Source: Halobacillus sp. Marseille-P3879 (GTDB taxonomy: Bacteria; Bacillota; Bacilli; Bacillales; Halobacillaceae). Taken from it: 64,000 nt of DNA. The stretch covers positions 310,001 to 374,000 of the forward strand of contig NZ_OESS01000001.1 of NCBI RefSeq assembly GCF_900240285.1, read 5' to 3'. Positions 13,843 through 32,344 of the stretch are shown piece by piece; position 1 is the first letter of the stretch, and each line of letters starts with the position of its first letter. The position numbers and the translations under genes are program-made. Under the pieces are notes generated by a model that was not told where the DNA came from, did not search any database, and saw only the letters and a list, made by a program, of their open reading frames with translations.

Positions 13843-13856
13843 ATTTCCCGGGAAAT
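13843..13856. promoter_or_regulatory. Noc nucleoid-occlusion binding site (NBS), exact consensus
   Basis: ATTTCCCGGGAAAT, a 14-base perfect palindrome identical to the Noc-binding consensus described in Bacillus subtilis. It begins just past the EamA stop codon. Noc bound here blocks septum assembly over the nucleoid. A second identical copy is at 32331. Confidence 0.8.
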
Positions 13857-29866: not shown

Positions 29867-30013
29867 TGTTTACATTTATGTTTACAAGTATACAAAATGC
29901 ATTCTAAATGTGTACAATACCGTGTTCATGTACACAAAGTTGAACACATAGCTAAAATTAGGGATGTGTACAAAAAAGATTGCATGTAAACATATTTGTA
30001 GTAAATGTGTACA
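29867..30013. repeat. parC-like centromere: array of TGTKTACA repeats upstream of the actin-ParR operon
   Basis: Eight copies of an octamer. TGTTTACA at 29867 and 29879; degenerate AGTATACA at 29887; TGTGTACA at 29909; inverted TGTACACA at 29929; TGTGTACA at 29965; inverted TGTAAACA at 29985; TGTGTACA at 30006. From the fourth copy on, spacings are 20, 36, 20 and 21 bases, close to whole helical turns, so the sites face one side of the DNA. The array ends 110 bases before the actin-like gene. Type II partition loci place their ParR-binding centromere in this position, which also serves as operator. The array is read directly; the role is inferred. Confidence 0.7.
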
Positions 30014-30122
30014 ATTACGAACACGAAAATAGTCACATTGACTATTCCGGCCTGATCTAATATGTTTAATAGTGAAGCTAGTAATCTAGCTAATTTCTTT
30101 TATTAAAAAGGAGAGCTATTAA

Positions 30123-31304
30123 ATGACAAAATCAAGAATTGCTGCTGTTGATGTCGGGAACGATGCAGTGAAAGCAAACTTCGGGAAGTTAGAATCCGAA
30201 CTATATATACCAAACGTGATGGCAAGAGACTTAGAAGACCGCCCGGTTATCGGAATTGAAGAGCTTGATGACAAAGAACCCCTGGATAACATACATATAC
30301 GGGTTCATTCCCCTGCGCTGCAGGAGAATAACGCGATATACCGTGTGGGTAATCTAGCGGCTAAAAGCGATAATTCTACAGAACTGGATCCAGGCAGCAG
30401 TAAATCTGAAGAGGATCAGACGCTCGTTATGCTTTTTACTTCGCTGGCACTGGATGCTGTTGCTGGCAGAGATGCTCAATCCTCTAAGAATAATGTAGTA
30501 GAGGCTAATTATACGTTAGGGACGGGACTCCCGCTTAGAGAAGTAAAGGAAGGTAAAGATGTAGGGTATCGCTCTCAATTACTGGGATCTGTTCACCAGG
30601 TAGAATTCCTTGTCACACCTAAATACCAGGGAATGAAAGTAAATATTAAGTTTGACGAGGTGAAAGTATATCCTGAAGGTTTTGCGGCTTATGTAAACTT
30701 AGTAATGGACAATGACTTAAACATTATTAATAAAGACCTTATTGATAAGCAAATTCTTATTCAAGACATAGGTGGACTTTCAACCGATATTGCAGTAATC
30801 CGTAACCGCAATGTGGACGACGATAAAGCGCAAGGGTTCAACTTAGGAGTTGCTGAGTCGCTTGAACAAATTCGAGATGAGATACTGACGAAACATGGTG
30901 TACAATTAGACAGTCGAAGAGATGTAGTCGATATTATTACAAGAAAGAATGATCGTCATCATATCATGGTGCGAGGCAGTCGTACCAGCGTTCATGACAT
31001 TACAGACCGTATACTGTTAGAGTTGGCTAAAAAGCAGTACCGTTTCCTTCGAAATGTATGGCAGAAGAATTCTCAGTCTGAGATTTGCTATTTTGTCGGG
31101 GGAGGATCAGCTGTATTAAAAGAGTATATTAAAACGCTGAATAATAAACTCGACGGCTTTAATATTGACTTTTTTGAAGATGAAAATGAAAGTATCTGGA
31201 TGATGGCCAACGCTTACTACAAACTAATTTCTGATTACATCCGCAAAAATGAAGCTTCTCAAAGCAAAAAGGAAGATAAAAAAGAAAAAGCGTCATCAAA
31301 GTAA
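30123..31304 (+). CDS. parM: ParM/StbA/Alp-family actin-like segregation ATPase
   Basis: 393 residues, bacterial actin fold. Phosphate-1 loop AAVDVGNDAVKANFG at the N-terminus (residues 7-21). Phosphate-2 loop IQDIGGLSTDIAVI near 215-228. Adenosine loop CYFVGGGSAVLKEYI near 320-334. The tail is rich in Lys and Glu. The length fits the Gram-positive plasmid actins (Alp7A-like) better than the 320-residue R1 ParM. ATG with AAAAAGGAGAGC upstream. It is preceded by the repeat array and followed nine bases later by the ParR-like gene, the standard type II partition order. ATP-driven filaments of such proteins push plasmid copies apart. Finding it among chromosomal housekeeping genes suggests an integrated replicon or a repurposed cassette. 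Confidence 0.85.
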   Translation: MTKSRIAAVDVGNDAVKANFGKLESELYIPNVMARDLEDRPVIGIEELDDKEPLDNIHIRVHSPALQENNAIYRVGNLAAKSDNSTELDPGSSKSEEDQTLVMLFTSLALDAVAGRDAQSSKNNVVEANYTLGTGLPLREVKEGKDVGYRSQLLGSVHQVEFLVTPKYQGMKVNIKFDEVKVYPEGFAAYVNLVMDNDLNIINKDLIDKQILIQDIGGLSTDIAVIRNRNVDDDKAQGFNLGVAESLEQIRDEILTKHGVQLDSRRDVVDIITRKNDRHHIMVRGSRTSVHDITDRILLELAKKQYRFLRNVWQKNSQSEICYFVGGGSAVLKEYIKTLNNKLDGFNIDFFEDENESIWMMANAYYKLISDYIRKNEASQSKKEDKKEKASSK

Positions 31305-31313
31305 GGTGATTAA

Positions 31314-31904
31314 ATGAGTAATACCAAGAAAGGTGTAGAAAGGGGGCAGTCGATAACGTTTCGTGTCCCCTCGGATACACCAGATCACTTATTGAAGCAA
31401 TTAACAGCTTTAAAAGAGAGTGAAAGAAGGAACTTTTCCAGTAAGGTTGCGCAGTTTGTTCTGGAGGGAGTAAGTAAGTCTTTATCCAGGGAGAAAGAGA
31501 CTGTAACCATACCTCTACCCCGCCAGCTTACAAAAGAACAGAGGAACTGGTTGAAACATGAGCACTCTGAAGCTTTGATGGGAAGCATACTGTATCAATT
31601 GCTAAGCGACCCTACACGAGCTATGACTTTACTCGCATCTTTAAATAGTAATGCAGTAGATATTGAAGAAGCCCTGTATTTACAAGAAGAAACTGCTGCT
31701 TCACTTGACAATAATATATCTGAAGAAGATAACAATCAAAAAACGGATGATCAGGATGTAACTCTAGAAACAAGCAATGATCATGACCTCGATGATTTAA
31801 GTTTAGACAGCTTACAGACTGATATCCATGCTTCTGCAGAAACAGAGGAATATGAAGAAGATGAGGATCCTTTAGGGGACTTTCTATCTAGCATGAATAA
31901 ATAA
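31314..31904 (+). CDS. ParR-like centromere-binding adaptor of the actin cassette
   Basis: 196 residues, no strong name-giving motif, but organised like ParR. The N-terminal region GQSITFRVPSDTPDHLLKQL continues through LKESERRNFSSKVAQFVLEG, predicting the beta-strand and two helices of a ribbon-helix-helix DNA-binding domain. A basic/helical middle follows. The C-terminal 80 residues are extremely acidic and probably disordered, ending DEDPLGDFLSSMNK, a plausible filament-contact peptide. It starts nine bases after parM (AAGGTG ribosome-binding site) and ends in a strong terminator. Assignment rests mainly on genetic position. Confidence 0.7.
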   Translation: MSNTKKGVERGQSITFRVPSDTPDHLLKQLTALKESERRNFSSKVAQFVLEGVSKSLSREKETVTIPLPRQLTKEQRNWLKHEHSEALMGSILYQLLSDPTRAMTLLASLNSNAVDIEEALYLQEETAASLDNNISEEDNNQKTDDQDVTLETSNDHDLDDLSLDSLQTDIHASAETEEYEEDEDPLGDFLSSMNK

Positions 31905-31945
31905 CGAATCCCCCAGTTATACAGACTGGGGGATTCGTTATTTTA
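31903..31945 (+). terminator. strong terminator closing the parM-parR operon
   Basis: AACGAATCCCCCAGT (31903-31917) and ACTGGGGGATTCGTT (31925-31939), a perfect 15-bp stem overlapping the parR stop codon, followed by ATTTTA. Confidence 0.85.
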
Positions 31946-32330: not shown

Positions 32331-32344
32331 ATTTCCCGGGAAAT
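32331..32344. promoter_or_regulatory. second Noc binding site (NBS), exact consensus
   Basis: ATTTCCCGGGAAAT again, 14 of 14. It is followed directly by a six-base inverted repeat, GTCGAG (32345-32350) and CTCGAC (32355-32360). It lies in a 247-base intergenic gap 430 bases past the parM-parR operon. No gene is seen in the rest of that gap. Confidence 0.8.

Follow-up and report, generated by a model that had tools for sequence, protein, structure and literature searches.

A ParM-type actin and its putative adaptor lie together with an upstream palindrome array among chromosomal genes of Halobacillus sp. Marseille-P3879. This raises the question whether the locus is what an integrated plasmid has left behind, or a segregation system which serves the chromosome itself. 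Both readings had been put forward in an earlier note on a 64-kb stretch of this genome, which covers 310–374 kb of contig 9; the whole stretch is called the window in the following, and all positions refer to it.

Organization of the actin cassette

Array, actin, adaptor and terminator were found to form a compact unit within positions 29867–31943, all on the forward strand, as the earlier note had described. The actin gene (30123–31304) codes for a ParM/Alp7A-like protein of 393 amino acids, which is 98% identical to the actin of Halobacillus andaensis. It matches the Pfam families Alp7A_like_C (E = 1.5e-35; 122.7 bits, cut-off 22), ALP_N (1.9e-9; 38.3 bits, cut-off 26.3) and MreB-like_C (8.3e-10), all above the cut-offs, and PHROG 691 'partition protein' (5.9e-40). 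It stays below the cut-offs for ParM proper, with 22.1 against 27.4 bits for Pfam PF21523 and 30.2 against 417 bits for NCBIfam PRK13917. The residues D10–D14, D215–D222 and G326–G328, presumably the nucleotide loops, are invariant across 50 orthologs, and with the family matches they agree with the previous description of a ParM/Alp-family actin with three intact loops. The predicted actin structure is poor (pLDDT 51), and searches against solved structures returned weak matches to clostridial ParMs as well as chance ones, and nothing else.

The ParR-like adaptor gene (31314–31904, 196 amino acids) begins nine bases past the actin stop, the spacing given before. An adaptor follows the actin directly in all 80 named loci, with a gap of 5–19 bases (81 rows). 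No family match was obtained for it in Pfam, NCBIfam or PHROGs. The N-terminal block ERGQSITFRVPSDTP...RRNFSSKVAQFVLEG (31338–31469) is conserved and comprises invariant and near-invariant residues. The earlier note had seen a ribbon-helix-helix-like N-terminus here, of which the conservation stands and a DNA-binding region of this type is plausible, the fold being read from the sequence. The structure model (mean pLDDT 64) has no strand and is too poor to use, and a fold search with it gave nothing at E ≤ 0.001. The acidic segment, also noted before, is present as a variable linker and is followed by the conserved C-terminal tail DPLGDFLSSMNK (31866–31901). Its consensus is DDLLGDFLSxMNK (also given as DPLGDFLSxMNK), and L187, F190, M194 and N195 are invariant in 50 sequences. 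This tail is probably an actin-docking peptide.

Five Halobacillus pairs were compared for substitutions. Strong purifying selection acts on the actin (pN 0.02–0.07, synonymous sites saturated). For the adaptor, pN amounts to 0.05–0.10 in the N-terminal domain, 0.27–0.44 in the linker and 0.07–0.17 in the tail, so that core and tail are constrained and the linker is much freer. The pattern is that of a living gene pair.

The adaptor stop is overlapped by the terminator (31899–31943), a perfect 19-bp inverted repeat with no mismatch, in agreement with the earlier description; it is absent from the list of a simple terminator scanner. An Rfam search gave no match. The 14 flanking proteins that were scanned are metabolic, envelope or regulatory proteins, and no replication, mobilisation or phage gene is among them, which bears out the chromosomal flanks claimed before.

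Downstream of the cassette, the sequence ATTTCCCGGGAAAT, which we take to be the Noc-box consensus, occurs exactly at 32331–32344 (no strand assigned), starting 427 bases past the adaptor end. The genome has eight exact copies, two of them in the window (13843–13856 and 32331–32344), and the second of these has counterparts at a similar distance from the actin in five of the six genomes of the genus that were searched. Near the cassette, an exact copy is present in 6/81 loci, all from Halobacillus, and a site with at most one mismatch in 8/81 loci, with about five predicted from the rest of the loci. The Noc box was therefore rejected as a component of the cassette. The exact site pointed out before exists, and its vicinity to the cassette is a trait of some Halobacillus, not a part of the system. 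No parS site with up to two mismatches was found near the cassette in 81 loci.

The palindrome array and the promoter region

The upstream repeat array reported earlier consists of seven perfect TGTNNACA palindromes in 147 bp (29867–30013), which start at 29867, 29879, 29909, 29929, 29965, 29985 and 30006 and resemble a parC region. The whole window contains 23 such sites, with 13.9 expected. Upstream of the actin, 372 perfect sites were counted in 81 loci, corresponding to about 4.6 per 400 bp compared to 0.087 in the rest of the loci, an approximately 50-fold enrichment. Single loci carry up to ten sites; at least three are present in 67 of 80 loci, one in three loci and none in another three. 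This count covered 82 rows minus L111 and L112, which are no cassette loci, and L093 was excluded. The distances between TGTNNACA pairs in the 81 loci show a periodicity of about 11 bp, close to the helical repeat; the vector strength is 0.45, and 500 random placements reached at most 0.16. Because the loci are related, this is no strict probability. The phasing applies to distances of 15–120 bp, a range outside the frequent 8- and 12-bp spacings.

In the genome of this strain, four close TGTNNACA pairs are located in the array and four elsewhere, each of the latter isolated. The array is the sole cluster of its kind, and many dispersed sites, like ram or parS, were rejected for this genome. 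Among eight ortholog-bearing genomes listed, runs of pairs are found upstream of the actin in five (G135, G148, G171, G211, G271) and a single upstream pair in two (G136, G245), while in G044 the only close pair is downstream of the actin. Close pairs away from the cassette comprise a short run in G245 and two pairs in G135. The total number of pairs in several of the listed genomes does not exceed that of a reversed-pattern control (1 vs. 10 in G044, 10 vs. 13 in G171), and therefore the signal lies in the clustering, not in the number. Some members of the family thus have a weak array.

Directly 3′ of the array starts a sigma-A-type promoter-like site, TTGACT-17-TATGTT (30038–30066, 9/12 matches). 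The stretch holds 15 sites of this type, with 6.3 expected, and the 14 others score 9/12 like that of the cassette; ATTGAC is present at the corresponding place in 14 of the 20 other loci printed. Between promoter and actin start, a small leader hairpin, AGCTAGTAATCTAGCT (30076–30091), is possibly an attenuator; its sequence is retained in the loci L031 and L032. The hairpin is followed by a T-rich stretch.

Distribution and position on the chromosome

Of 249 genomes sampled from the order, 117 have an actin ortholog (74–100% identity, E ≤ 1e-30); they represent 44 of the 105 genera covered. Two of the 117 hold an extra copy at 37 or 42% identity, and no match falls between 42 and 74%. No ortholog was found in the other 132 of the 249 genomes, and the cassette is therefore dispensable at large scale. 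At class level (398 genomes), 24 matches show 76–100% and 19 show 30–43% identity. The best 80 of 441 named loci span about 20 genus names, among them Halobacillus, Virgibacillus, Oceanobacillus, Lentibacillus, Metabacillus, Mesobacillus and Fictibacillus. The chromosomal location is kept across species, and the record of locus L108 is titled complete chromosome.

Further actin-like genes were observed as well. A second, far more distant one (25–30% identity) is located elsewhere in 18 of the 37 family genomes searched, e.g., at G020:C1:3671380, G026:C21:51237 and G033:C5:396760. In the small-genome genus g6, the ortholog is missing from all four genomes that were searched, one of which has a relative with 41% identity (G024:C6:7150-8256).

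Apart from the adaptor, no neighbor of at least 100 amino acids is common to more than 20 of the 80 named loci, as judged from ORFs of this size between about −6.5 and +8 kb (a few loci have short flanks). An 84-amino-acid zinc-ribbon protein is a neighbor in 17 of the 80. Local synteny across genera was therefore rejected for ORFs of at least 100 amino acids. The synteny search suggested in the earlier note thus has a divided outcome, since the local gene order varies across genera, whereas with respect to the origin the cassette keeps both side and orientation. In all 36 measurable genomes, which belong to 16 families, the cassette is located to the left of dnaA and is transcribed away from the origin. 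The distance to dnaA is 41–327 kb in the 31 genomes in which both lie on one contig, and about 37–269 kb, calculated with rounded genome sizes, in five genomes in which the interval crosses the record start (G013, G171, G198, G211, G271). The 36 were obtained from 45 genomes chosen for few contigs. The other nine are G020, G071, G203, G213 and G215, in which the interval crosses the record start on several contigs and which look alike, G178, G181 and G185 with dnaA and actin on different contigs, and G040 without ortholog.

As a control, the neighboring gene gltB was located in the same manner. In 15 of 26 genomes it lies left of dnaA at a distance of up to 400 kb, in the other 11 it is 0.8–2.2 Mb away, and in all nine of these 11 that were measured the cassette is still near dnaA. 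The 26 remained from 40 genomes searched, of which ten have only a homolog of 31–34% identity and four carry gltB and dnaA on separate contigs; the additional copies in G005 and G007 were disregarded. In divergent lineages, gltB may not be a strict ortholog.

Genes close to the origin are commonly stable in position, and for this reason the constant place of the cassette may reflect descent. The position might accordingly be explained by gene dosage or by a stable origin-proximal backbone to which the cassette belongs, with a cytoskeletal actin and an array which is an operator for autoregulation only. The array, which abuts the promoter-like site, would suit such an operator, but seven sites in 147 bp, and up to ten in relatives, are beyond the need of an operator, the conserved adaptor tail suggests a coupling between DNA and filament, and the microsynteny around the cassette varies. 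We regard this explanation as improbable. The constant origin side wherever it could be measured suggests instead that the cell uses the cassette to place its own chromosome. The proposal that the cassette has been recruited for chromosome positioning is in this way supported by the fixed origin-left place, short of proof.

SpoIVA was found in 241 of the 249 genomes of the order. The cassette is present in none of the eight SpoIVA-negative genomes (four genera) and in 117 of the 241 others (one-sided Fisher p = 0.006, kinship ignored), which is a weak hint at a link to sporulation. For RacA, the family NF009646, named PRK13182.1-1, was searched, which we take to be RacA and whose cut-off was reached by no genome. 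Matches to it were obtained in 71 of 117 genomes with and 82 of 132 genomes without the cassette (p = 0.90); an association was rejected. The genome of the present strain has no match to this RacA-type family. In B. subtilis, the RacA anchoring (ram) sites are described as falling mainly into 250 kbp on the left side of oriC (PMC4949633). The two capture pathways are described as being reported by markers at −79 and −418 kb (PMC9564211). The origin-left stretch in which the cassette is found is comparable to this stretch of ram sites and capture markers.

Relatives on plasmids, phages and other chromosomes

The plasmid collection searched contains 36 records with a relative of the actin, the best at 43% identity; a 39% relative is encoded on the Salimicrobium plasmid pSJ52 (H21). 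The plasmid-borne ParM/StbA actins of Alp7A type and from Bacillus and Paenibacillus share the Alp7A-type C-terminal domain, and six of eight plasmid adaptors match the chromosomal adaptor profile with 50–102 bits. They differ in that the actins are at most 43% identical within the collection searched, and in that the adaptors of the eight plasmid loci are shorter (109–151 compared to 172–213 amino acids) and lack the DPLGDFLSxMNK end, three of the eight ending in FLNFDDDD-type tails. Three TGTNNACA sites within 500 bp upstream of the actin are present in two of the eight plasmid loci, those of a B. subtilis MH-1 plasmid and pPpo46.

An actin tree was calculated from 39 sequences (30 of the 81 chromosomal rows, eight plasmid rows and one phage row), for which the tool warned of long branches. 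The seven Halobacillus rows, including that of the window, are placed together. Of the plasmid rows, seven cluster with support on a long branch and the remaining one is isolated on a very long branch; with the warning on long branches, plasmid rows are apart from the chromosomal rows. The phage actin lies inside the chromosomal group with weak support.

These data bear on the first of the two readings in the earlier note. An integrated plasmid or phage, present as a relic or inserted recently, would agree with the kind of genes, which is typical of plasmids, and with local neighbors that vary between genera. It is contradicted by the distribution of the orthologs over 44 of 105 genera, by the intact and strongly constrained genes, by the lack of mobile genes among the flanking proteins scanned and by plasmid relatives of at most 43% identity, with which the separate placement of the plasmid rows in the tree agrees, subject to its long-branch warning. 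The plasmid relic was thus rejected, and we consider an insertion of either kind extremely improbable.

The deposited phage records searched gave no match to the actin. Two viral contigs from one metagenome, identical over the 9.1 kb compared, carry an actin 72% identical to that of the window, with three TGTATACA upstream and no adjoining adaptor. An adaptor with 36% identity and a nearly identical tail, DPLGDFFAVMNK, is encoded on one of these actin-bearing contigs and on a third contig. The neighbors on the viral contigs include tail-spike and integrase families. The loci are L113/L125 and L114/L126 for the actin and L123/L127 and L124/L128 for the adaptor. A phage that preserved this tail in an otherwise diverged adaptor may exploit the host system or interfere with it.

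The partition genes could also have been domesticated for a role outside the chromosome, i.e., segregating plasmids or phages in trans or excluding plasmids with similar arrays, and vertical descent alone would then keep them near the origin. The related cassettes on plasmids, the two plasmid loci with three TGTNNACA and the phage with its 72% identical actin, TGTATACA repeats and an adaptor of similar tail elsewhere speak for it. Against it, no close relative was found on any plasmid of the collection, and therefore no regular client in trans is visible; furthermore, the array remains chromosomal and in cis, as the sole one here, and side and orientation relative to dnaA are constant. This explanation is judged unlikely, though somewhat less so than that of a mere operator array.

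An Alp-type actin, an adjoining adaptor gene and a nearby repeat array are features which the cassette shares with type II partition systems (ParMRC). According to the text of a 2025 study, chromosome-encoded ParMs (cParMR) are present in Desulfitobacterium, C. botulinum, Moorella, B. tropicus and others (PMC12270681). They resemble the present cassette in having a chromosomal actin and adaptor with high conservation in related species, and the palindromic repeat region which the C. botulinum adaptor is described as binding has a counterpart in the array here. They differ in that, according to the Clostridium legend, no conserved cparC was identified among strains. Bt-cParM of B. tropicus is said there to be conserved in Bacillus. 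No position relative to oriC was found in that study, in whose main text 'oriC' occurs once, in a reference, and 'Halobacillus' and 'Virgibacillus' are absent (PMC12270681).

AlpAC of the Corynebacterium prophage CGP3 likewise comprises an actin, a co-encoded DNA-binding adaptor and repeated sites in the promoter region, but it is described as prophage-encoded, with the site TTAAnnG, and as serving phage DNA (PMC5539076). A 2009 survey cited by the same source lists over 35 actin-like protein families, some of which are chromosomal. The RacA-ram and Soj-Spo0J-parS systems of B. subtilis are similar in that RacA acts left of oriC, and they differ by a model without actin and by many ram sites compared to one array here (PMC4949633; PMC9564211). 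Besides the general cParM concept, literature searches gave no report of the cassette or of its origin-left place. The kind, a chromosomal ParM, is thus known, while the array and the fixed place of this family look new.

A possible centromere left of the origin

Taken together, the cassette is probably a long-established resident of the chromosome, a centromere and actin of the ParMRC type, which acts on the region left of the origin. In such a system, adaptor dimers would sit next to each other on the TGTNNACA palindromes and repress the promoter beside the array. Through the flexible acidic linkers, the conserved tails would reach the end of an actin filament driven by ATP, and filament growth would separate the two sister copies of the region left of the origin or hold them at a pole. 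A special role in placing the origin-left segment in the forespore may be considered in addition, more weakly than the preceding steps.

These predictions become directly testable with a conserved, origin-linked actin cassette that has a centromere-like array and occurs in many sporulating genera which can be cultured. For the present strain, whose genome has no match to the RacA-type family, the cassette may bear on how the origin region is placed. More broadly, and tentatively, nearly half of the sampled species of the order, whose members are mostly spore-forming bacilli, could possess a second, actin-based centromere, an array left of oriC that would be moved or anchored by a ParM-type filament, beside Soj-Spo0J and, where present, RacA. 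It would place the origin-left segment, chiefly for the forespore, and at least one phage would hold matching parts to use or disturb this system.
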